Shown: positions 5 to 15,805 of the stretch, in pieces | Numbering within the stretch: the stretch's first letter is position 1 | Layout: each line of letters opens with the position of its first letter | Virus record (IMG/VR): IMGVR_UViG_3300043427_000649 | Location: 1-23,981 of that record | Direction: 5' to 3' (one strand) | DNA length: 23,981 nt | From: a virus | Notes under the pieces: generated by a model | What the model was told of the DNA's origin: nothing | The model's database searches: none | The model's input: the letters and a program-made list of their open reading frames with translations, nothing else | Program-made: the position numbers and the translations under genes

Positions 5-2041
5 ATGGCAGATTTAGACCAAAACGAGTACGAGCAGCCATCTCAGGCCGACAAGGACTTGACCGCATTTGTCGTTAACCACTGCGACAAGTGGCGGGAC
101 TACCGAAATGCCAACTTCATGACGTCGTATCTGGAATATGAGCGCATTTTCCGTGGTGAATGGGCAGCAGAAGACAAAACGCGCGAGTCTGAGCGCTCCA
201 GAATCGTGACGCCTGCCACCCAACAGGCTGTAGAGACCAGACACGCTGAAATTCTTGAGGCAATTTTCGGCCAGGGTGAGTTTTTCGACATTCAAGACGA
301 CTTGCAAGACGTCAACGGCAGCCCGTTGGACGTGGGCGTGCTCAAAGCGCAGCTCATGGAGGACTTCAAGCAGGACAAGATCAGAAAAGCGATTGATCAG
401 ATCGAGCTGATGGCCGAAATCTACGGCACGGGCATCGGCGAAATCGTTGTCAAGACGGAAAAGGTGTTCGAGCCCGCAACGCAGGCGATTCCAGGCCAGA
501 TGGGCCAAGCGGCCATCGGCGTGGTGGAAAAAACACGCATCGCCGTGAAGATCATGCCTGTCAACCCCAAGAATTTCTTGTTTGACCCCAACGGCACGAC
601 GATTGACGACTGCATGGGTGTGGCGATTGAGAAGTATGTGGGCATCCACAAGATCGTTGAAGGCATGGAAAACGGCATTTACCGCAAGGTGGATATCGGT
701 TCGGCCTCCGAGGACACTGATCTGGAGCCAACGCAAGAGGTCACGCAGTACCGCGACGAAAAAGTGCTCTTGCTCACGTACTACGGACTGGTTCCGAAGG
801 AGTTGCTGGACGAAGACGCCGATGTAGTCGATCTGTTCCCCGAGGACTCGCAGGCTGACACGTACTCGAACATGGTGGAGGCGATTGTCGTAATCGCCAA
901 CGACGGCGTGCTGCTCAAAGCCGAGGCGAATCCGTACATGATGAACGACCGTCCGGTCATCAGCTACCAAGACGACACTGTACCCAACCGCTTGCTGGGT
1001 CGCGGTACGGTGGAGAAGTCTTACAACATGCAAAAGGCGATTGACGCCCAGGTGCGCAGCCATCTGGACAGTCTGGCGCTGACAACCTCACCCATGATGG
1101 GCATGGACGCCACCCGTCTACCACGCGGCGCACGGTTTGAGGTCAAGCCCGGCAAAGCGTTCATGGTCAACGGCAACCCAGCCGAGATTCTGTACCCGTT
1201 CAAGTTCGGCGAGACGAGTCTGAACAACCTGAACACGGCCAAAGAGTTCGAGCGAATGCTGCTGCAAGCCACTGGCACGCTGGACTCACAGGGTATGGTC
1301 AGCCAAGGCAACCGAGACGGTGCGGGCATGAGCATGGCGGTGGCCACGGTGATCAAGAAGTACAAGCGCACGCTGGTGAACTTCCAAGAGGATTTCTTGA
1401 TCCCGTTCATCAAAAAAGCGGCGTTCCGGTACATGCAGTTCGACCCTGAGCGCTATCCGAGCGTAGACATGAAGTTCGTGCCGACGGCCACGCTGGGCAT
1501 CATCGCCCGTGAGTACGAGCAGCAGCAGTTCATTGGTCTTTTGCAGACGCTGGGGCCAGACACTCCGGTGCTGCCGCTGATCTTGAAGGGCATCTTGAAC
1601 AATTCTAGCCTGACCAACCGCTACGAGCTGATGGCAGCGCTTGACCAGATGAGCCAGCCAGACCCACAAGCGCAAGCAATGCAAGAAGCGCAGCAGCAGT
1701 TGGCCATGCAAGCGGCGCAGGCTCAGATCGCGGTCAGCACAACGCAGGCCGAGCAGAACCGGGCCGAGGCGACCAAGCTGATGACCGAGGCGCAGCTCAT
1801 GCCGCAAGAGGTGCAGGCCAAGGTGATCGCATCGACCACCAAAAACCTGCCTGCTGGCAACGAGTCCAACGAGTTCGACAAGCGTGTGAAAATCGCTGAA
1901 TTGATGCTCAAGGAAGCGGACATCAAGAACAAGAGCAAGATTGTTGAGTTGCAAATGAACAACGCAAAGAACAATGTTGTGGATGTGGAAAACGACTTCC
2001 TCGAAACCTTGAACACGGAGTTGACAAATGGCAATCGATAA
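5..2041 (+). CDS. Portal protein (podovirus type)
   Basis: This 678-residue protein is read as the portal: the dodecameric ring at the capsid vertex through which DNA is packaged and ejected and onto which the tail is built. The N-terminal third fits podoviral portals, with an aromatic Trp/Tyr/Arg-rich start (CDKWRDYRN), then SRIVTPATQQAVETRHAEI and ILEAIFG. The middle holds the NMQKAIDAQVRSHLDSLAL helix. The C-terminus is a long Gln/Ala-rich helical region, roughly residues 545-600, like the barrel of P22-type portals. Length is close to the 650-750 residues usual for such portals. Only four bases precede the ATG, so the ribosome site lies outside the window. It overlaps the fibre gene by 14 bases. 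Terminase is expected just upstream. The family call rests on recalled similarity and on context. Confidence 0.82.
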   Translation: MADLDQNEYEQPSQADKDLTAFVVNHCDKWRDYRNANFMTSYLEYERIFRGEWAAEDKTRESERSRIVTPATQQAVETRHAEILEAIFGQGEFFDIQDDLQDVNGSPLDVGVLKAQLMEDFKQDKIRKAIDQIELMAEIYGTGIGEIVVKTEKVFEPATQAIPGQMGQAAIGVVEKTRIAVKIMPVNPKNFLFDPNGTTIDDCMGVAIEKYVGIHKIVEGMENGIYRKVDIGSASEDTDLEPTQEVTQYRDEKVLLLTYYGLVPKELLDEDADVVDLFPEDSQADTYSNMVEAIVVIANDGVLLKAEANPYMMNDRPVISYQDDTVPNRLLGRGTVEKSYNMQKAIDAQVRSHLDSLALTTSPMMGMDATRLPRGARFEVKPGKAFMVNGNPAEILYPFKFGETSLNNLNTAKEFERMLLQATGTLDSQGMVSQGNRDGAGMSMAVATVIKKYKRTLVNFQEDFLIPFIKKAAFRYMQFDPERYPSVDMKFVPTATLGIIAREYEQQQFIGLLQTLGPDTPVLPLILKGILNNSSLTNRYELMAALDQMSQPDPQAQAMQEAQQQLAMQAAQAQIAVSTTQAEQNRAEATKLMTEAQLMPQEVQAKVIASTTKNLPAGNESNEFDKRVKIAELMLKEADIKNKSKIVELQMNNAKNNVVDVENDFLETLNTELTNGNR

Positions 2042-5000
2042 AATTTTTGAGGGCGCAGCGCTGGACGGCATTGCGGACAACCTGTTCAACTCGGTCAGCA
2101 ACTCGGTCTCAGAGATCAAGGCCATGCAGCAGCGCAAGGCCGCTGAAAACGTGCAGTTGGTGATTCAGGCACTCAAGAAGATCGACAACGACATCCGCGA
2201 GAAGTACGACGGCGTGGCCACGGTGATCGAAAAGCGCGTGGCCACGATCAAAGATGGCCGTAACGGCATCGACGGCAAAGACGGGCGCGACGGCAAGGAC
2301 GGTCGCAATGGCCGTGACGGTGCGCCAGGTGCTCGCGGTATGGACGGCGCTCGCGGCATGGATGGCCAAGACGGTGAAGATGGTGTGTCGGTCACTGAGG
2401 CACACATCGACTTTGATGGCAGCCTGATCATCAGCCTGTCGTCGGGCCGTCAGATCAACGTGGGCGAGGTCGTGGCCCCCGATCTGGCCGAGAAGATCAA
2501 GGTGATCACCAATGGTGGTGGCACTAGTCAAGGCGTGCTGGACACATTGACCAGCCTGCAAAACCAGATCAATGCACTGGTGAGCTTAGGTTCAGTCACC
2601 TACGAGGGCACTTGGAACGCATCAACCAACACACCGACCATTGTGGCGGGCACTGGCGACAAGGGTGAGTATTACGTCGTGTCAGTGGCGGGCAACACCA
2701 GCATTGACGGCGAAACGCTGTGGGGTGTGGGTGACTGGATCATCTTCAACGGCGTGGTGTGGCAAAAGGTTGACGGCGGCAGCACAGGGGACCTCACCTC
2801 ACTGACTGTTAGAGACAACACCATTTTGGGCAGCAGCAACAGCGACACGGTGACCTTCACTGCCCGTATCAACTCAGACTTTGATCCTGCAACAGATAAT
2901 GCCTTTGATTTAGGTCGTGTTGGGCATGAGTGGCGTAATCTGTATCTTGATGGCACGGCTAATATTGACAGCCTGATTGCTGACACAGCGGATATTAACG
3001 GCGGCACGATTGATGGCGCGTCTGTGGGCGCTACAACAGCCTCTACAGGCGCGTTTACTACGCTGACCTCATCGTCTGATGCAACCCTGCATGGCCTCAC
3101 CGTAGGCCGTGGTGCAGGTGCTGTGTCTACCAACACTGCGGTGGGTGCTAGTGCTTTGGCGGCTAATACGACTGGCAGTTTTAATACTGCTTTTGGTCAA
3201 ACCGCTGGGTCAACAATTACCACTGGCACTGAAAACGTGGCTATCGGTCAAGGTTCAATGTCTAATGGAACGGTCACGGGCGATTACAACACCACTGTTG
3301 GAACCTCGTCCACGCGCAACCTGACCAGCGGAGCGTCCAACGTGGCGGTTGGTCATGCCGCGCTTAATGCCACCACCACAGGGGGGAATAACGTAGCCCT
3401 TGGAAAGTCTGCGCTTCAATTAAACACCACAGCATCTAACAACACTGCCGTCGGTTATCAGGCGTCTTATGCAAATACTACAGGCGCATCGAACGTATCG
3501 CTTGGAGCACTCGCTGGTTACACAAACACTACTGGCAACAACAACACAACTCTTGGAAACCAAGCAGGGCAGTCAAATGTCACGGGTTCGCAAAACGTAT
3601 TTGTCGGGTCGGTTGCTGGATTTAACAGCACAGGCTCCAGCAACACTGGTGTTGGATACCAAGCGGTTCGCAATTCCAGCGGAGGGTCAAACGTAGGTGT
3701 TGGTCAGTCTGCGCTTGTAACAAATACCACGGGCGCAAACAATATCGCAGTGGGCAACAACGCACTTGCCGGAAATAGCACAGGCGCGTTTAACACCGCA
3801 ATTGGCGACAGTGCAATGGCGGCAAACACCACTGCAAACGACAACGTAGCAGTTGGACAGTCCGCATTGGATGCCAATACTACTGGCGCAGCCAACGTGG
3901 CTTTGGGTCGTGATGCTTTAGGGGCCAACACTACAGCAAGCTATAACACCGCTGTTGGATACCAATCGGGGTATAGCAATACTACAGGTGCATCCAATCA
4001 GGTTTTTGGCTATCAGGCGCTGTATTCAAACCAAACTGGCAGCAACAACGCTGCATTTGGTACAGGCGCTTTGTACGCAAACACTGCCAGTGATAATGCT
4101 GCATTTGGTTCAGGTGTTACCGCAGTAGCGGGGGGCGCACTTGTTTCAAACACAACTGGAGAACGCAATGCAGCTTTTGGTGGGGGCGCTGCTTCTTCTA
4201 ACACCACGGGCAATTACAACACCGCAATTGGCACTCTTGCATTGAAGTCCAACACCACAGCCTCCGAAAACACTGCTGTTGGTTATCAGGCTTTATATAG
4301 TCAAACAACAGCAGGTACTGGTTCTAACACTGCTTTTGGTCATCAAGCAGGTTACGACACCAACGGTTTTTACAACACCTTCATTGGATACAAATCTGGC
4401 CTGCCTTCTACGGGCAACCAAAACACCTTCATAGGTCATGCTTCTGGCTCGGCAATGACCAGTGGCTCCAAGAACACCATCCTTGGCGTTTACAACGGCA
4501 ACCAAGGTGGCCTCGACATCCGCACTGGCAGCAACTACATCGTGCTGTCTGATGGGGATGGGAACCCGAGGGGGGTTTTTGACAACAATGGGAATTTGTT
4601 GGTTGGGGCGACTAGTACCATAAGCATTTCTGGCGTTTCAACAGGCCATGCTTTTGTTCAAGCGACAGATGGTAGATGGATTACAGGTTTTAGACATTCC
4701 ACAACAGCGACCCCTTGGGGCATTGCTATTGATTATTCTGCTGTTGCACCAAACGACACAAGCAGCCACTTTTTGTTTTGCACTGACAGTGCTGCAACCC
4801 GAGCAGTAATTCGCTCAAATGGTGGTCTTGCTAACTACCAAGGCAACGATGTCAACTTGTCAGACCGCCGAGAGAAGACCAACTTTGCCCCGGCTAAGTC
4901 GTACCTTGAAACCATCTGCGCTATCCCTGTGCAGACCTTTAACTACATCGACCAGAACATGGAAGATGACCCCGGCCTGACGCTTGGTGTTGTGGCTCAA

Positions 5001-5168
5001 GATGTTCAAGCCGTTGCGCCTGAGTTGGTCATGGAAAGCAATTGGGGCAGCAAAGACGACCCCAAGATGCGCCTGTCGATCTACCAGACCGATTTGCAAT
5101 ACGCCTTGATGAAGGCTTTGCAAGAACTCAAAGCAGAATTTGATGCTTACAAGGCGGCACATCCATGA
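2028..5168 (+). CDS. Large modular tail fibre with collagen-like region, 17-residue repeats and S74 chaperone domain
   Basis: This 1046-residue receptor-binding fibre begins inside the portal gene, with GGAG 7 bases before its ATG. Modules in order: an N-terminal helical/coiled-coil segment (about 1-75); Gly-X-Y triplets (77-119); a carbohydrate-binding-like module (about 185-255, motif GDWIIFNGVVWQKV); a short module with DLGRVGHEWRNLYLDG (about 290-315); about 24 repeats of 17 residues, NTTGxxNxAxGxxALxx (about 369-815), like trimeric adhesin head repeats; and a C-terminal intramolecular chaperone (945-1046). The S74 protease signature SDRREK is present, with Ser945 and Lys950 spaced like the catalytic Ser/Lys pair of endosialidase, so the chaperone is expected to cleave itself off after trimer folding. 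The N-terminus lacks the virion-anchor sequence seen in the second fibre, so how it attaches is unclear. The gene directly follows the portal, an unusual place for a fibre. Confidence 0.85.
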   Translation: MAIDKIFEGAALDGIADNLFNSVSNSVSEIKAMQQRKAAENVQLVIQALKKIDNDIREKYDGVATVIEKRVATIKDGRNGIDGKDGRDGKDGRNGRDGAPGARGMDGARGMDGQDGEDGVSVTEAHIDFDGSLIISLSSGRQINVGEVVAPDLAEKIKVITNGGGTSQGVLDTLTSLQNQINALVSLGSVTYEGTWNASTNTPTIVAGTGDKGEYYVVSVAGNTSIDGETLWGVGDWIIFNGVVWQKVDGGSTGDLTSLTVRDNTILGSSNSDTVTFTARINSDFDPATDNAFDLGRVGHEWRNLYLDGTANIDSLIADTADINGGTIDGASVGATTASTGAFTTLTSSSDATLHGLTVGRGAGAVSTNTAVGASALAANTTGSFNTAFGQTAGSTITTGTENVAIGQGSMSNGTVTGDYNTTVGTSSTRNLTSGASNVAVGHAALNATTTGGNNVALGKSALQLNTTASNNTAVGYQASYANTTGASNVSLGALAGYTNTTGNNNTTLGNQAGQSNVTGSQNVFVGSVAGFNSTGSSNTGVGYQAVRNSSGGSNVGVGQSALVTNTTGANNIAVGNNALAGNSTGAFNTAIGDSAMAANTTANDNVAVGQSALDANTTGAANVALGRDALGANTTASYNTAVGYQSGYSNTTGASNQVFGYQALYSNQTGSNNAAFGTGALYANTASDNAAFGSGVTAVAGGALVSNTTGERNAAFGGGAASSNTTGNYNTAIGTLALKSNTTASENTAVGYQALYSQTTAGTGSNTAFGHQAGYDTNGFYNTFIGYKSGLPSTGNQNTFIGHASGSAMTSGSKNTILGVYNGNQGGLDIRTGSNYIVLSDGDGNPRGVFDNNGNLLVGATSTISISGVSTGHAFVQATDGRWITGFRHSTTATPWGIAIDYSAVAPNDTSSHFLFCTDSAATRAVIRSNGGLANYQGNDVNLSDRREKTNFAPAKSYLETICAIPVQTFNYIDQNMEDDPGLTLGVVAQDVQAVAPELVMESNWGSKDDPKMRLSIYQTDLQYALMKALQELKAEFDAYKAAHP
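2256..2384 (+). repeat. Collagen-like Gly-X-Y repeat in fibre 1
   Basis: Fourteen consecutive Gly-X-Y triplets plus a closing Gly (residues 77-119 of the fibre). X and Y are mainly Asp, Lys, Arg, Asn and Met, and only one triplet contains proline. At DNA level it appears as GGC/GGT every third codon. Collagen-like stretches form trimeric rods in phage fibres, which fits a trimer with a C-terminal chaperone. Stability would have to come from Lys/Asp and Arg/Asp ion pairs, since phages mostly lack proline hydroxylation. Confidence 0.9.
3132..4490 (+). repeat. Array of about 24 coding repeats of 51 bases (17 residues) in fibre 1
   Basis: Tandem degenerate repeats with period 17 residues and consensus NTTGxxNxAxGxxALxx. 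Examples are NTTANDNVAVGQSALDA, NTTGAANVALGRDALGA and NTTASYNTAVGYQSGYS, all in register. A few units are longer or shorter, for example near nt 4110-4140 and 4290-4330. The pattern of NxAxG plus Ala/Leu resembles the left-handed beta-roll repeats of trimeric adhesin heads and suggests a long beta-solenoid shaft. Such arrays can change copy number by recombination, giving fibre length variation. Confidence 0.85.
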
Positions 5169-5650
5169 TTACCCAACAACAAGCCTTAGACCTGTTTGAG
5201 TACCGTGATGGAGATTTGCACTGGAAGGTGCGTCCTGCGAACTTGGCTGTCTGTGGAACTGTCGCTGGTTACAAAAACACCAAAGACTCGTATTGGCGAG
5301 TGGTTGTGCAGGGGAAAATGTATTTGAAGCACCGCCTTGTATTTTTGTACCACCACGGCAATTTGCCCAAGTATGTTGACCACATCAACGGCAACCGAGA
5401 AGACAACAGGATTGAAAACTTGCGCTTGGCTACACAAGCTGAAAATGCAAGAAACGCTAAACTTCCACGCCACAACACATCAGGGGTTAAAGGCGTGTGC
5501 AAGCCTAAAAAAGATAAGAACTGGACTTGTTCATTGCGAACAAACAAAAAACTCAAAACTGTTGGTGGGTTCAAAAACAAGGAACTGGCTCAGGAGTTTA
5601 TGGAGTTGTGGCGTGAAATGGCACACGGGCAATTTGCCAATCATGGTTAA
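5165..5650 (+). CDS. HNH homing-type endonuclease with AP2-like C-terminal domain
   Basis: This 161-residue protein fits free-standing phage HNH endonucleases, which nick or cut DNA at or near their own insertion site and spread by repair. The HNH core is HRLVFLYHHG followed by VDHINGNREDNRIENLRLAT, giving the first His, the DHxxG turn and the NxxENL Asn. The C-terminal part (NTSGVKGV, then basic residues and GGFKNKELAQEF) resembles the AP2-like DNA-binding domain often fused to these nucleases. The ATG overlaps the fibre stop codon (ATGA). By hand count nt 5401-5580 is about 41% G+C against about 55-60% for many late genes, consistent with recent insertion. It separates the fibre from its small partner gene, while the second copy of that pair at 13636-15507 has no such insert. 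Confidence 0.9.
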   Translation: MITQQQALDLFEYRDGDLHWKVRPANLAVCGTVAGYKNTKDSYWRVVVQGKMYLKHRLVFLYHHGNLPKYVDHINGNREDNRIENLRLATQAENARNAKLPRHNTSGVKGVCKPKKDKNWTCSLRTNKKLKTVGGFKNKELAQEFMELWREMAHGQFANHG

Positions 5651-5665
5651 CCAAAGGAAACCAAA

Positions 5666-5983
5666 ATGACAACTTTTACCACTACTATTAATTCGATGTA
5701 CACGCTCAACACCCCCGATCCCGGGTACGTTGTGAACGTACTGTGGACAGTGACCGGGGTGGACGGCGACAACACTGCCTCCATCGGCGGCAACACACAG
5801 TTCAGTTCTGCTGACCAAGAGGGCGCATTCGTGCCTTACGAATCGCTGACTGAGGCTCAAGTCTTGGCGTGGATTCCCGCCAACCAGATCGAGAGCGCAC
5901 AAGCCTGCGTGCAGGGCCAGATCGACAGCATGATCACCCCACCTGTCAGCCCACAAAGCACAACTTTGCCTTGGGCAGCTTGA
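5666..5983 (+). CDS. Small fibre-associated protein, copy 1 (unknown function)
   Basis: A 105-residue soluble protein of unknown function. It aligns without gaps to the product of 15196-15507, with about 55 of 103 positions identical by hand count. Shared blocks are MTTFT, GVDGxxTAS, CVQGQI, PPV and a terminal LPW. From memory it belongs to a widespread family of small phage proteins encoded beside fibre genes (I believe DUF7936); that assignment needs a profile search. Here the HNH gene lies between it and the fibre. Location suggests a role in fibre assembly or attachment, but nothing in the sequence proves it. The start is supported by AAAGGA upstream, after a 15-base gap. Confidence 0.75.
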   Translation: MTTFTTTINSMYTLNTPDPGYVVNVLWTVTGVDGDNTASIGGNTQFSSADQEGAFVPYESLTEAQVLAWIPANQIESAQACVQGQIDSMITPPVSPQSTTLPWAA

Positions 5984-6274: not shown

Positions 6275-6695
6275 ACTTGCGATTTGCAACGCCGCGTTTT
6301 CCGTGATCAAAGAAACCGTCCAAAACGGCGGCGACATCATGGCCGCTGGCCAGAAGTTGTTTGACTTCTTTGACAACAAAAACGCTATCCAGAAGAAGGC
6401 CAACAGCGGCAACGACATGGAAGCGTTTGCGGCTCTTGAGCAGATCAAGAACAACGAGGCTGAACTCAAGCGCATGATGGTGTACCACGGTCGTGCAGGG
6501 CTTTGGGATGACTGGCTCAAGTTCCAGAAAGAAGCCAAGCAACGGCGTGAGGCTGAGGAAAAGGCTGAGTTTCGCAAGAAGGCTGCACGCAAAGCAAAGA
6601 TTTGGCTTACCCTCATGTGGGCTGCAATTGTGTCTTTGCTGGGTGTTCTCATGACCGTCGGCCTTTGGGTCGTGTCGCAACTGAAAGGAAAGTAA
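6264..6695 (+). CDS. C-tail-anchored coiled-coil protein in lysis cassette
   Basis: A 143-residue protein of unrecognised family. The N-terminal part (1-50) is mildly hydrophobic (MLAELAICNAAFSVIKETV). The middle (50-110) is highly charged and helical (KEAKQRREAEEKAEFRKKAA). A single transmembrane helix lies near the C-terminus (about 111-138, LTLMWAAIVSLLGVLMTVGL) and is followed by a short basic end. The topology predicts a cytoplasmic body held to the inner membrane. It overlaps its upstream neighbour by 11 bases and the holin by one base (TAATG). An antiholin or spanin-like role is possible from the place alone; no lipobox is seen. Confidence 0.7.
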   Translation: MLAELAICNAAFSVIKETVQNGGDIMAAGQKLFDFFDNKNAIQKKANSGNDMEAFAALEQIKNNEAELKRMMVYHGRAGLWDDWLKFQKEAKQRREAEEKAEFRKKAARKAKIWLTLMWAAIVSLLGVLMTVGLWVVSQLKGK

Positions 6696-7198
6696 TGCTG
6701 TCACTCATCTCAACCCTTGGGGGTCTGCTGATCTCTGGCTTACCCAAGCTGCTGGAGTTCTTCCAAAACAAAGCCGACCAAGCGCACGAGTTGCGGCTGG
6801 CGCAGATGCAGACAGAGCGCGAGTTGCAAATGGCTGCCGCTGGTTTCGCAGCCCAAGCTCATATCGAGGAAATCCGCACTGAGCAAGTCGCTATGCAGAC
6901 CCAGGCTGAAATGGTGCAGGGCGCTCAAGACCACGACAAGGCAGTGCTGGAAAAGGCATCCAAATGGGTCGCCAACTACATCGGCACAGTGCGCCCCACG
7001 GTGACGTATATCTTTGTGGCCGAGCTGGTCGCCATCAACGCCTTCCTGTGCTACTACCTGTGGAGTAATCCCGGCCTGATCACCAGCATGGACGATGTGC
7101 TGCGCTACGCCGACATTATTTTCAGCCCTGATGAGATGGCTATGCTTGGCGGAATTATTGGATTTTGGTTCGGAAGTCGTAATTGGAGCAAGAAGTGA
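6695..7198 (+). CDS. Holin, three-transmembrane (gene-transfer-agent type)
   Basis: A 167-residue protein resembling the three-segment holins described for gene transfer agents (family recalled as GTA holin 3TM). Holins open the inner membrane so the endolysin can reach peptidoglycan. A hydrophobic N-terminal helix (about 1-23, STLGGLLISGLPKLLEFF) is followed by a long charged, Gln/Glu-rich helical region (25-95). Then come the signature VRPTVTYIFVAELVAINAF with a transmembrane helix (about 104-125) and a last hydrophobic helix (about 147-160, LGGIIGFWFGSR). The chosen start follows AAAGGAAAG and overlaps the upstream stop (TAATG). A longer in-frame start at 6602 was rejected because it reads through the neighbour. 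It is followed directly by the endolysin gene. Confidence 0.82.
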   Translation: MLSLISTLGGLLISGLPKLLEFFQNKADQAHELRLAQMQTERELQMAAAGFAAQAHIEEIRTEQVAMQTQAEMVQGAQDHDKAVLEKASKWVANYIGTVRPTVTYIFVAELVAINAFLCYYLWSNPGLITSMDDVLRYADIIFSPDEMAMLGGIIGFWFGSRNWSKK

Positions 7199-7698
7199 AA
7201 ACTTCTGATCTAGGCATCCACTTGATGCACGAGTTTGAGGGCTACCGGAATCGCCCATACAAATGCAGTGCAAAAATCTGGACTGTCGGGTGGGGCCACG
7301 CCATGTACGGCGATCAGTTGCGCCTGCCCAACGTGCGAACAGGAACCTACACCGGGATGATCCGCGATGACTACCAACTCAAGCCCGAAGACAACCGGGT
7401 CTGGTCGAAAGAGGAACTGGTTGAGATATTCAAAACTGACCTCGTTTCTTTTGAACGCAGTGTTCTTCGACTTGCTCCCAATCTGGCTGGCCATCAGCGC
7501 AAGTTTGACGCTTGCGTCGCTCTGGCCTTCAATGTAGGCTCGGGCAACTTCCAGCGCAGCACGGTGCGTCAAAAGATTTTGAGGGAAGATTGGGAAGGCG
7601 CTGCCGAGGCGTTCATGTCCTGGTCAAAAGCGGGCGGGAAAGTCCTGCCCGGCCTGGTCAGACGCCGCAAGGCTGAGATTGCACTATTCCTATCGTGA
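7195..7698 (+). CDS. Endolysin, GH24 muramidase (T4/P22 lysozyme type)
   Basis: A 167-residue phage lysozyme that cuts the glycan strands of peptidoglycan. From the GTG start, the catalytic motif E-x8-C-x5-T is seen as Glu15 (HEFEG), Cys24 and Thr30 (TVGWGH), the Cys variant found in P22-like lysozymes. The C-terminal part carries the usual FDACVALAFNVGSGNF and the WSKAGGKVLPGLVRRRKAE signature. No signal peptide or SAR segment is present, so export depends on the holin. GTG at 7195 was chosen over TTG at 7183: GGAG lies 6 bases before it and it overlaps the holin stop as GTGA. Confidence 0.93.
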   Translation: MKTSDLGIHLMHEFEGYRNRPYKCSAKIWTVGWGHAMYGDQLRLPNVRTGTYTGMIRDDYQLKPEDNRVWSKEELVEIFKTDLVSFERSVLRLAPNLAGHQRKFDACVALAFNVGSGNFQRSTVRQKILREDWEGAAEAFMSWSKAGGKVLPGLVRRRKAEIALFLS

Positions 7699-12068: not shown

Positions 12069-13639
12069 GCCAAGCCCTCCAGACTGCTAGTGTCTCAGCG
12101 CCAGGTTTCTTCGGGCTGAACACCCAAGACTCGCCCTTAGACTTGGCGGCTGGTTTTGCACTGGTTGCAAATAATTGCATCATTGACCAGTTCGGTCGTA
12201 TTGGTGCAAGAGAAGGGTTCCGCCGAATCAACGCTTCGTCAGGCGCTTTGGGCGACAACAGCGTCACGGTCATCCATGAGTTGGTGCAAGCTGACGGCGT
12301 GCTGACCATATTGTTTGCAGGCAACAACAAGCTCTTTAAACTCGACGGGTCCAACGCCGTTGTTGAGCTGACGTATGGGGGCGGGGGTACAGCGCCGCTG
12401 ATCACTGCGAACAATTGGCAGTGCGCGTCTCTCAACGGCATAGCCTACTTCTTTCAAGTGGGCTTTGATCCACTGATCTTCGATCCTGCGGTTAGCGCCA
12501 CCACATACCGCAGGGCCAGCGAGAAGGCGGGCGCAACAGGCACACCGCCTCAAGCCAACATTGTTATCTCGGCGTATGGCCGCTTGTGGGCTGCGGACAC
12601 CTCGTCCGATAACGTCACGGTTTTCTTCTCCGACTTGCTTAGCGGGCACAAGTGGACTGGCGGGTCTTCGGGCAGTCTGAACGTCAACACGGTTTGGCCA
12701 AGCGGCGCGGACAACATCACCGGCTTGGCTGCGCACAACAATTTCTTGCTGATCTTTGGTAGCCGTCAGATTCTGGTCTACCAAGGTGCAAACGACCCCA
12801 CTGCTACGTCGCCAGCCGTATTTGCGTTGGCCGATACAGTCAGCGGCATAGGGTGCCTCGCCCGCGACTCGATTCAATCGACTGGCAAGGACGTTTTGTT
12901 CCTGTCTAACTCGGGCGTGCGGTCTTTTGCCCGAACGATCATTGAAAAATCACTGCCTGTTGGCGACATCTCCAAAAACGTCCGCAACGATTTGATACAG
13001 ATTTTGGCGAGCGAGATACCCGCCAACATCAAGTCAGTCTACTCAGAAACCAAGGCGTTCTACTTGCTGACCCTTCCGTCAGTCAACGAGGTGTATTGCT
13101 TTGATACCAGAGTGCAACTGCAAGACGGTTCGTTCCGCGTAACGGTTTGGGATTCCATCCAGCCGTCTGCTTTGCTCTCTCGCCGCAATGGTGACTTGTT
13201 CCTAGGCAAGAGTGGGTTTGTTTGTAAATACGGCACGTATCAAGACCACACCAGTTCTTACCGGTTCATGTATTACACGAACAACGCTGACTTGGGCAAC
13301 CAAAACATCATCAGCATTTTGAAGCAGCTCAAGCTCATCGCAATTGGCGGCAGCAACCAGACGGTCACGATCAAGTACGGCTTTGATTTCGCGGCGAACT
13401 ACCAGTCTGTCAACGTGATTATTCCGACGCAAAGCGTAGCGGAGTACGGCATTGCTGAATTTGGGGCAAACGGCGTGCCGCTGGCCGAGTATGTCGAGGG
13501 CGTAGCGCTGCAAACGCTCTCTGCGCCTGCCTCCGGTAGCGGTAAAATTGTTCAAACTGGATACGAGTCTGACATCAACGGCGCTGCGCTGTCGATCCAG
13601 CGCATCGAAATCCAAAGCAAAGATGGGAAAACATCGTGA
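12065..13639 (+). CDS. Tail hub/nozzle protein, P22 gp10-like stabilisation protein
   Basis: A 524-residue, beta-rich protein with repeated short strands, starting SAPGFFGLNTQDSPLDLAAG and NCIIDQFGRIGAREGFRRI. That opening is characteristic of P22 gp10-type proteins (packaged-DNA stabilisation family), which form the hexameric tail hub below the adaptor. Later blocks are VISAYGRLWAADTSSDNVTV, HNNFLLIFGSRQILVYQG and DVLFLSNSGVRSF, as expected of a beta-propeller. Length is close to gp10. It overlaps the adaptor (ATGA) and the next fibre gene (GTGA). In P22, gp10 holds the tailspikes, so the fibre encoded next is a likely partner. Confidence 0.8.
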   Translation: MSQALQTASVSAPGFFGLNTQDSPLDLAAGFALVANNCIIDQFGRIGAREGFRRINASSGALGDNSVTVIHELVQADGVLTILFAGNNKLFKLDGSNAVVELTYGGGGTAPLITANNWQCASLNGIAYFFQVGFDPLIFDPAVSATTYRRASEKAGATGTPPQANIVISAYGRLWAADTSSDNVTVFFSDLLSGHKWTGGSSGSLNVNTVWPSGADNITGLAAHNNFLLIFGSRQILVYQGANDPTATSPAVFALADTVSGIGCLARDSIQSTGKDVLFLSNSGVRSFARTIIEKSLPVGDISKNVRNDLIQILASEIPANIKSVYSETKAFYLLTLPSVNEVYCFDTRVQLQDGSFRVTVWDSIQPSALLSRRNGDLFLGKSGFVCKYGTYQDHTSSYRFMYYTNNADLGNQNIISILKQLKLIAIGGSNQTVTIKYGFDFAANYQSVNVIIPTQSVAEYGIAEFGANGVPLAEYVEGVALQTLSAPASGSGKIVQTGYESDINGAALSIQRIEIQSKDGKTS

Positions 13640-15186
13640 GTAACTACGTTCAAAGCACCAACTTCGCGACCAAAGATACGTTGCCCACAGGCAACCCACT
13701 CAAGATCGTCAAAGGCACGGAGATCAACGCCGAGTTTGTCAACATCGCCGTAGCGGTCGCAACAAAAGCTGACTTGATCTCGCCAGTGCTGGTCACACCC
13801 GCGCTTGGAACGCCCGTCAGCGGCGTGTTGACCAACTGCACCGGGCTGCCTAGCTCGGGTTTGCTCACAAACTCGCTCACGATTGGCGGCACTGCCATTG
13901 CACTCGGCGCGTCTACCAACGCTCTGGCAAACGACATCACCATCAACGACGTCACAATTGGGCGCGGCGCAACTTCCGAAATCACCAATACCGCATTGGG
14001 TAATGGCACATTAGGCGCAGTAACCACAGCCATTAATTGCACAGCCGTGGGCACTTCAGCACTGTTCAGCAACACAACTGGAGCAAGGAATACGGCGGTC
14101 GGCGTGCGTGCTTTGGTTACAAACACCACCGGCGTCAACAACGTAGCCGTTGGCGTTAGCTCTTTGGATCAAAACTTGAGTGGCCTTTCCAACATTGCTG
14201 TTGGGCGCTCCGCGCTGTTCGATAACACAACAGGGTCCAGCAACGTGGCCATCGGAACAGTTGCCCTGAGCAACAACATTTCCGGCAACTCCAACGTGGC
14301 GATTGGCTTGGATTCGCAGTTCACCAACACCACCAGCACAGGCAACATCGGTATCGGCTTTGCCACGCTGTTCTCAAACAATTCCGGCACGTCTAACATG
14401 GCGATTGGCGGCAGCTCGTTGTACAACAACAACGCGGGCTTCAACAACATCGCCATCGGTGTTGACTCTATGTTTACGAACACCACCGGCGACGGCAACA
14501 TCGCGGTAGGCTATCAGGCCATGTTTGACAACGTGACCGGCAGCCAAAACGTGGCGGTCGGTGTGCAAGCATTGGAAGGCAACATAGGTGCTATCTATAA
14601 CACTGCGGTTGGCTTCCAATCACTTTACGCAAACAACGGCTATGGCAACACGGCCATCGGTCACATAGCGTTGGTTGGCAACACCGGCGGTCAGTCCAAC
14701 GTGGCGATTGGTAAGTCGGCGCTCGGCGCTTGCACTACCGGCTCGGGCAACACGACCATCAACGCGATGAATGGCTCAAGTGTTTACGCGCCTGTCTTTA
14801 ACGTCACCACAGAAAGCAATCGTTTTGTCGCGGGTTCAACTGGTGTGACCAACGCCTATGTTCAAGTGGCTTGGACGGTCGTTTCTGACGCGCGGGACAA
14901 GACCGACTTCGCGCCCGTACCCCACGGCTTGGACTTTGTGACCAAACTCAAGCCTACTACCTATCGGTACAAGCTTAATCGTAGCGACACAGAAGGCCAC
15001 GGCCCGCTGCGCTACGGCTTCAAGGCCCAAGACGTGTTGGAGCTGGAAGGCGACAACCCAGTGATTGTGGACACCGAAGACACTGAAAAGCTCAAGTTCA
15101 ACGATCAGTCGATGATTGCTGTTTTGGTAAACGCCATCCAAGAACTCAAAGCCGAGTTCGACGCTTACAAAGCCACACATCCTTGA
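13636..15186 (+). CDS. Second tail fibre with N-terminal anchor, 17-residue repeats and S74 chaperone domain
   Basis: A 516-residue fibre starting with GTG on a GTGA overlap. The N-terminus (FATKDTLPTGNPLKIVKGTE, then INAEFVNIAVAVATK) matches the virion-anchor sequence common to many podovirus fibres. About 14 repeats of 17 residues (118-374) follow, with the same NTTGxxNxAxGxxAL consensus as fibre 1. The C-terminal S74 domain (417-516) has SDARDK, with Ser417 and Lys422 as the likely self-cleavage pair. Both fibres end in a near-identical QELKAEFDAYKAxHP. It lacks the collagen and carbohydrate-binding modules of fibre 1 and is half as long. It follows the gp10-like hub and precedes the second copy of the small fibre-associated gene. 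Confidence 0.87.
   Translation: MSNYVQSTNFATKDTLPTGNPLKIVKGTEINAEFVNIAVAVATKADLISPVLVTPALGTPVSGVLTNCTGLPSSGLLTNSLTIGGTAIALGASTNALANDITINDVTIGRGATSEITNTALGNGTLGAVTTAINCTAVGTSALFSNTTGARNTAVGVRALVTNTTGVNNVAVGVSSLDQNLSGLSNIAVGRSALFDNTTGSSNVAIGTVALSNNISGNSNVAIGLDSQFTNTTSTGNIGIGFATLFSNNSGTSNMAIGGSSLYNNNAGFNNIAIGVDSMFTNTTGDGNIAVGYQAMFDNVTGSQNVAVGVQALEGNIGAIYNTAVGFQSLYANNGYGNTAIGHIALVGNTGGQSNVAIGKSALGACTTGSGNTTINAMNGSSVYAPVFNVTTESNRFVAGSTGVTNAYVQVAWTVVSDARDKTDFAPVPHGLDFVTKLKPTTYRYKLNRSDTEGHGPLRYGFKAQDVLELEGDNPVIVDTEDTEKLKFNDQSMIAVLVNAIQELKAEFDAYKATHP
13987..14757 (+). repeat. Array of about 14-15 coding repeats of 51 bases in fibre 2
   Basis: Degenerate 17-residue repeats, for example NTTGARNTAVGVRALVT, NTTGVNNVAVGVSSLDQ and NVTGSQNVAVGVQALEG. 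They share period and consensus with the array in fibre 1, although the DNA is more G/C-rich here. One unit near nt 14635 is one residue short. The repeats form the predicted beta-roll shaft between the virion anchor and the S74 domain. Confidence 0.83.
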
Positions 15187-15195
15187 AAGCCATAG

Positions 15196-15507
15196 ATGAC
15201 TACATTCACAGCCAAAATCCTTGCGATGAACACCTTGCAGCAGCCGGGCCCCGATTACGTGGTCAGCATGTTGTGGGAACTCACTGGCGTAGATGGCCAG
15301 CACACCGCGTCTGTACGCGGCACCACGCACTTTGACTCATCTGAGCAGTCTGGGCCAGTGACGCCATATAGCGCGCTGACACCCGAGATCGTCGTGAGCT
15401 GGATTTCGCCGGAAGACATGCTGGTTGCCCAGCAGTGCGTTCAGGGCCAAATCAACACCCTGATCGCGCCGCCTGTTCTGCCGCAAAACACGCCGCTGCC
15501 TTGGTAA
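15196..15507 (+). CDS. Small fibre-associated protein, copy 2 (unknown function)
   Basis: A 103-residue paralogue of the protein at 5666-5983, ungapped and about 53% identical by hand count. The shared MTTFT start, GVDGxxTAS, CVQGQI and terminal LPW define the family. It lies 9 bases after the fibre 2 stop, with only a weak GAAAG before the ATG, so it is probably translated by coupling. Occurrence directly after each S74 fibre argues for a fibre-linked role such as assembly chaperone or collar piece. Each copy may be matched to its own fibre, which would explain why two are kept. Confidence 0.77.
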   Translation: MTTFTAKILAMNTLQQPGPDYVVSMLWELTGVDGQHTASVRGTTHFDSSEQSGPVTPYSALTPEIVVSWISPEDMLVAQQCVQGQINTLIAPPVLPQNTPLPW

Positions 15508-15511
15508 CCTT

Positions 15512-15805
15512 ATGATCACTCATCACTTCAGCGATGGTCTGTACGCCAAGCAAGCGGTTATCCCCGCAGGTACAGCCATTCTGAAGCACACGCATGAGTT
15601 CAGCCATCTGTCGATCCTGGCCGCTGGCAAGGTGGCAGTGATGAAGGGTGATGCGATTGAGGTGATCGAGGCCCCGGCCTGCATAGAGATCAAGGCTGAT
15701 TTGACGCACGGCGTCAAGGCCCTTACAGATTGCGTTTGGTTTTGTATTCACGCCACTGACGAGACTGACCCGTCAAAAGTGGATGACGTTTTGATTGGAG
15801 TTTGA
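15512..15805 (+). CDS. Small cupin-fold protein
   Basis: A 97-residue single-domain cupin. Motif 1 is G-x5-HxH-x3-H-x6-G: Gly20, His26, His28, His32 (where many cupins have Glu) and Gly39. A second-motif His lies at residue 66 (KADLTHGVKAL). These four His could bind a metal, so the fold is likely functional, but no substrate or enzyme class can be assigned. It starts 4 bases after the preceding stop with no clear ribosome site, implying coupling. Its end abuts the first ejection-protein gene. Possible roles are a minor virion protein, a sugar-modifying enzyme or a stabiliser; none is shown. Confidence 0.75.
   Translation: MITHHFSDGLYAKQAVIPAGTAILKHTHEFSHLSILAAGKVAVMKGDAIEVIEAPACIEIKADLTHGVKALTDCVWFCIHATDETDPSKVDDVLIGV

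Follow-up and report, generated by a model that had tools for sequence, protein, structure and literature searches.

Neither free-standing homing genes nor fibre mosaicism is new to phage biology. SegF and SegG of the T-even phages are encoded by free-standing genes, have their cleavage sites in neighbouring genes (56 for SegF and 32 for SegG) and co-convert the flanks (PMC2988022). The Xanthomonas phages Xp10, OP1 and Xop411 carry free-standing HNN-AP2 genes for which a role in fibre changes has been speculated; these genes are scattered without conserved flanks, and the enzymes were judged to be sequence-independent (PMC2248197). IPA-HNH nucleases and other homing endonuclease genes (HEGs) are found at the boundaries of genetic exchange, mostly beside genes for polymerase, ribonucleotide reductase and terminase, and HEG islands have been described as segments of more than 10 kb with high identity that are bracketed by two HEGs (Barth et al. 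2023, PMC10448857). In lactococcal Skunavirus, I-HmuI-like HNH genes cluster by insertion site and some show marker exclusion, with replacement of the target as the assumed model of resistance (PMC12724721).

The locus described here belongs to a freshwater tailed phage, a virus of bacteria whose portal and adaptor match SU10 families. The window that we analysed is the whole record of 23,981 bases, and it holds two modules in which a tail fibre gene is associated with a small gene of the DUF7936 family. In one of them an HNH nuclease gene lies in between. As with SegF and SegG, the ORF lies between conserved genes, and the slot, the empty sites and the linked flank found here fit that precedent; unlike those GIY-YIG enzymes with their replication-gene neighbours, however, the nuclease is probably of the HNN-AP2 kind, its neighbour is a fibre-linked gene and its target is inferred. 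It shares with the enzymes of Xp10, OP1 and Xop411 an HNN motif, a putative C-terminal AP2 region and a free-standing gene, theirs occurring in fibre-variable phages, but here one slot has been used repeatedly. Like IPA-HNH, it is an HNH nuclease gene, with a putative AP2 region, next to phage genes, at the edge of an apparently exchanged block. This stands in contrast to HEG islands, since there is a single HEG at the border of fibre and small gene (one relative alone, L092, has HNH genes on both sides), the HNH gene matches only itself within the window, and the shared block is 1.2 kb long. The I-HmuI-like HNHs of Skunavirus differ again, being of another subfamily and mostly located in the early region. 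It is thus already known that HEGs lie near exchange boundaries (PMC10448857) and that HNN-AP2 genes occur in fibre-variable phages (PMC2248197). What is new is a recurrent, precisely placed HNH slot that goes with DUF7936 irrespective of the fibre. The mobile gene is of an ordinary kind but its location is informative: an HNH gene that tracks a fibre-linked small gene, whatever fibre lies upstream, amounts to a natural experiment in which both filled and empty alleles are available. The predicted target is moreover short (about 90 bp), which offers a direct route to asking whether homing genes help to swap receptor-binding modules.

Organisation of the two fibre modules

The features of the window are collected in Table 1, in which, as throughout, numbers with the prefix L are our handles for loci in other contigs.

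Table 1. Fibre modules of the window and the features discussed in the text.
Feature	Position	Strand	Description
Tail fibre 1	2028..5168	+	1046 aa; PF13884 1.6e-12, PF01391 2.2e-7
Block of S74 end of fibre 1, HNH and DUF7936-a	4733..5974	+	76% DNA identity to L060/L090
HNH endonuclease (HNN type, free-standing)	5165..5650	+	161 aa; C-terminal AP2-like region; PF13392 1.7e-18, phrog_99 2.7e-58
DUF7936-a, directly behind HNH	5666..5983	+	105 aa; PF25590 2.8e-16
First 84 nt of DUF7936-a	5666..5749	+	HNH-linked across phages; putative homing target region or co-conversion tract
Tail fibre 2	13636..15186	+	516 aa; S74 domain aa 417-469; PF13884 9.9e-11
DUF7936-b, directly behind fibre 2	15196..15507	+	103 aa; PF25590 9.1e-11

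Fibre 1 has a conserved N-terminus (76-85% identical among phages with a related portal), a collagen-like tract at residues 77-119 and a C-terminal S74 domain at residues 945-1001. The S74 chaperone domain (PF13884, Peptidase_S74) is C-terminal and above cut-off in both fibres, and the final residues of fibre 1, QELKAEFDAYKAAHP, are nearly the same as those of fibre 2, QELKAEFDAYKATHP. At the first junction the fibre stop codon (TGA, 5166-5168) overlaps the HNH start codon (ATG, 5165) as ATGA, and 15 nt separate the end of the HNH gene from the start of DUF7936-a. The second junction is uninterrupted, with a gap of 9 nt between the fibre stop and DUF7936-b. The coordinates and gene order thus agree with the original prediction, which had placed an HNH/AP2-type gene between the first fibre and its small gene and had put the second small gene 9 bases beyond the fibre stop. 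Behind DUF7936-b, at 15512-15805, is a gene for a small cupin-like protein whose PHROG profile matches are a tail fibre adhesin and a short tail fibre protein; this gene keeps its place beside DUF7936-b in L082-L085.

The two small proteins had been proposed to be paralogues with about 53% identity. BLASTP gives exactly this value, over 103 aa and the full length, without gaps (E = 3e-39), and profile comparison places both in a single family: they score 60.5 and 42.8 bits against PF25590 (DUF7936; curated cut-off 27), and both match phrog_7802. The AlphaFold2 model of DUF7936-a (pLDDT 91) has a b-b-b-a-a order of elements. A fold search with this model found nothing in the PDB at E < 0.001, and in a viral library its matches at that threshold were DUF7936 or unnamed proteins only; our literature search found no paper that names DUF7936. 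Because these genes are always placed behind fibre or fibre-linked genes, a fibre-associated role is suggested. In five loci (L008, L028, L038, L044 and L064) DUF7936-type genes stand in tandem, one immediately after the other, the second copy often being very divergent.

A putative homing endonuclease of the HNN-AP2 kind

The nuclease scores 66.4 bits against PF13392 (HNH_3; cut-off 24.8), matches the HNH endonuclease family phrog_99 and has a sequence match to the solved homing endonuclease I-HmuI (1u3e, E = 8.5e-4). Its catalytic motif is intact, with D72, H73, N81 and N85 invariant across 40 relatives. The evidence for an AP2 domain is weaker in sequence (PF00847, E = 0.033, below cut-off). 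The AlphaFold2 model (pLDDT 92) has its top PDB match in WRINKLED1, an AP2 protein, with a probability of 1.00 but an E-value of only 0.09, and other AP2 structures rank below it, also with weak E-values. A search of NCBIfam gave no match for the HNH or for either DUF7936 protein, and promoter and terminator scans around the HNH gene were at chance level. The gene is an ORF of its own between two intact ORFs, outside any intron or intein. In our view this is probably a free-standing homing gene with the HNN-AP2 architecture, whose product is predicted to cleave DNA.

The G+C content of the HNH gene had been put at about 41%, which is too low: the computed value is 45.5%, low but only mildly so beside the S74 part of fibre 1 (51%) and DUF7936-a (56%). 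The slot HNHs of relatives range from 0.33 to 0.51. Since the difference is mild and the composition of slot HNHs is variable, we dropped low G+C as a proof of recent arrival. In one of these relatives (L073:6113-6619) the first 23 HNH residues are common to the L053 and L059 HNHs and the remainder is different, a pattern suggesting that domains or ends have been shuffled between slot HNHs.

Probable module exchange rather than duplication

The original prediction explained the two modules by an old duplication within the genome, followed by homing of the HNH gene into one copy. That both modules consist of an S74 end and a DUF7936 gene, with DUF7936 proteins 53% identical and nearly identical fibre ends, would be expected under this scheme, but the relationships of the individual parts tell against it. 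The fibre N-termini are unrelated, and the S74 domains are 37% identical to one another as against 81% between fibre 1 and L060/L090 and 57-59% between fibre 2 and L024/L037/L049. The ending QELKAEFDAYKxxHP is common in other phages. DUF7936-b is 76% identical to the slot-2 copies in L082-L085 and groups with them on the tree (99% support), whereas DUF7936-a is placed elsewhere. The latter is up to 88% identical to copies in other phages; it shares 80%, 79% and 74% identity with the slot-2 copies of L013, L022 and L047, respectively, but only 28-41% with the slot-1 copies of relatives that share the portal. The two modules are therefore not each other's closest relatives. Taken as a recent event within this genome, duplication is refuted by the closer kin that each module has elsewhere; we rejected it on the fibre and DUF7936 relationships, and as a general account we regard it as highly improbable.

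Swapping of modules between phages probably explains the pattern better. L060/L090 belong to a single contig (IMGVR_UViG_3300034121_000407), which has the block at 4733-5974 in common with the window as a unit; no portal related to that of the window was found on that contig. Together, fibre 1's S74 end, the HNH gene and DUF7936-a look like a block that was swapped in. Separately, the lysis region of the window (6687-7691) has 83% DNA identity to L005, with an endolysin that is 96% identical in protein. No related portal was found on L005, a 66-kb contig whose DUF7936 gene is also among the closest. The exchanged segment may extend beyond the fibre end.

Filled and empty slots

We compared the slot in front of 122 distinct DUF7936 genes collected by scans of viral contigs, all of the loci being metagenome contigs. 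About 100 of the roughly 120 distinct genes have another gene directly in front and no HNH. An HNH gene immediately precedes 18 of them, which we count as 17 distinct loci, on various backbones, because L086 is a near-identical record of the window virus (99.87% over 6.3 kb). In L086 (5355-5672) the DUF7936 frame is broken near the middle, through either sequencing error or decay. All six contigs with an HNH 80-100% identical to that of the window have it in the DUF7936 slot, and a DUF-based scan, unselected for HNH, found the gene at 6 of 80 loci. More distant HNH relatives are found in part in the DUF7936 slot, while many have unrelated neighbours, exonuclease- and terminase-like ORFs among them. 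The DUF7936 slot is used by several HNH lineages (40-55% identical), and in most loci the gap is between -4 and 15 nt, such that the two genes overlap or almost touch. In relatives with a portal 83-91% identical (L134, L137, L138, L143 and L144/L145), fibre 1 is followed by DUF7936 without an HNH. The comparison of junctions across relatives that had been proposed thus turned up both states, and it could have gone against a mobile gene if all relatives had carried the HNH in the same place with matching composition; most have none in the slot. A divergent DUF7936 gene in L092 (2278-3591) is flanked by HNH genes on both sides, which belong to different sublineages (41 and 50% identical to the window HNH).

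So constant an adjacency, with genes overlapping or nearly so, might instead mean that HNH and DUF7936 form a functional pair, for example a nuclease with its partner or regulator, and not a parasite and its target. We find this hard to credit given that some 100 of the 120 distinct DUF7936 genes lack a preceding HNH, that many other relatives of the HNH lie beside unrelated genes and that the HNH shows no linkage to the DUF7936 body (see below).

The clearest filled and empty alleles are those of L073 and L013, whose upstream sequences share 98% identity across 50 bp and 97% across 100 bp. This identity stops exactly at the ATG, the start codon of the HNH gene in L073 occupying the position of the DUF7936 start codon in L013, and the two are collinear again downstream (75-78%). 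Two further pairs of this type, L053/L013 and L087/L026, match more loosely.

To follow the mobility of the nuclease we used a tree of the DNA of DUF7936 codons 29-105 (the gene body) with 11 HNH-bearing rows, which are few and of which four (L053, L055, L059 and L233) represent one lineage. The HNH label needs 10 changes for these 11 rows, in line with random placement (mean of 10.7 after shuffling), and no fewer than 8 are demanded by well supported branches, although such counts do not tell gain from loss. AU tests reject a single clade of those DUFs that follow the 80-100%-identical HNHs (p = 1e-4), as well as a single clade of all HNH-bearing DUF7936 rows (p = 2e-4). From these tests and the scatter on the tree, nearly the same nuclease stands before unrelated DUF7936 bodies. 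One could imagine that the HNH gene has long been inherited vertically at its place before DUF7936 and has been lost from most lineages, and both the neutrality of the parsimony counts and the use of the slot by several HNH lineages would be compatible with this. It would, however, demand at least 8 separate losses if there was no recombination. HNHs that are 80-86% identical precede DUF7936 bodies that form no clade (AU p = 1e-4), the portal relatives lack the gene, and a related portal was found on none of six other tested contigs with 80-100%-identical or nearest slot HNHs, these contigs being fragments. We judge long residence to be quite improbable. The high identity of the HNHs and their scattered DUF7936 hosts favour gain of the HNH gene, or recombination just behind it, over loss, and with the fixed slot and empty alleles this is in keeping with the homing into the junction that had originally been envisaged.

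Linkage to the start of DUF7936

Within DUF7936 the first 84 nt stand apart from the gene body. Here the HNH label is clustered, with 5 changes against 10.6 after shuffling, a count as low being reached in none of 500 shuffles. Between HNH-bearing and HNH-free alleles the 5′ identity is flat, at 0.66-0.67, for body identities from 0.6 to 0.97, while among pairs of HNH-free alleles it climbs from 0.67 to 0.83 with body identity; the 3′ end shows no such effect. Collapsed to 8 lineages, the effect has a one-sided p of 0.0005 to 0.009, a range that depends on the number of neighbours averaged and moves with the choice of nearest neighbour. We use these lineage-collapsed values because a test on a smaller set overstated the effect for L087, whose 5′ divergence vanished once L013 became its nearest relative in the larger set. 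These two alleles, with and without HNH respectively, are similar along the whole gene (0.88 / 0.89), and the 5′ effect is thus not universal. Co-inheritance with the HNH, an indirect and moderate signal, extends to the 5′ 84 nt and not to the body. The pattern is moderate evidence for the trace expected of a co-conversion tract or a protected target, and as the first 84 nt or so are HNH-linked and the remainder is not, the most likely target is the DUF7936 5′ end, in the first 90 nt or so of HNH-free alleles. The divergence of this end could also have arisen as the translation start adapted to a different neighbour upstream.

It had been suggested that the nuclease may cut near the fibre 3′ end or the small gene. 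The linkage described above favours the latter, at its 5′ end, and the variety of upstream genes disfavours the former. Among HNH-bearing loci the upstream gene encodes an S74 fibre in 7 of 16 cases (55 of 100 in HNH-free loci), a phrog_6228-like small protein in 5 of 16 (19 of 100) and another product in 4 of 16 (26 of 100). A target in the 3′ end of the S74 fibre, with DUF7936 as a mere bystander, would suit a junction that adjoins both genes, and several HNH-associated fibres (those of the window, L223 and L224) do share the ending FDAYKxxHP. It nevertheless appears unlikely to us: 9 of the 16 classifiable HNH-bearing loci have something other than an S74 fibre upstream, the upstream classes are similar regardless of HNH status, and where the window resembles L087 and L091 the match begins inside the HNH gene and spans DUF7936 but excludes the fibre.

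Proposed mechanism

Our preferred reading is that of an intronless HNN-AP2 homing gene at the start of DUF7936 with its target in the 5′ part of that gene, and we assign a probability of about 0.8 to this account taken as a whole, including the identification of the nuclease. The HNH gene is inserted immediately 5′ of the DUF7936 start codon. In a mixed infection its product would cut or nick within the first 90 nt or so of an HNH-free DUF7936 allele, and repair from the HNH-bearing genome would copy the HNH gene together with the adjoining DUF7936 5′ end, which in its altered form would then escape cutting. Whether the upstream gene encodes an S74 fibre or another small protein would be irrelevant to targeting. 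Since repair must run through the upstream border, however, fibre ends could be exchanged as a by-product, and it is possible in this way that the nuclease helps to spread fibre modules.

A bolder version, which we offer tentatively and think rather doubtful, is that several HNH lineages have made the DUF7936 start a standing recombination hotspot. As DUF7936 follows very different fibre ends, repair would be forced through the fibre border, and repeated cutting would drive freshwater phages to shuffle their receptor-binding tips with one another. With respect to the hosts of these phages, the sole DUF7936 relatives in a collection of bacterial genomes (L360, L361 and L362) are in betaproteobacterial MAGs, one of them Limnohabitans, a placement that gives a weak hint of freshwater Burkholderiales as hosts.
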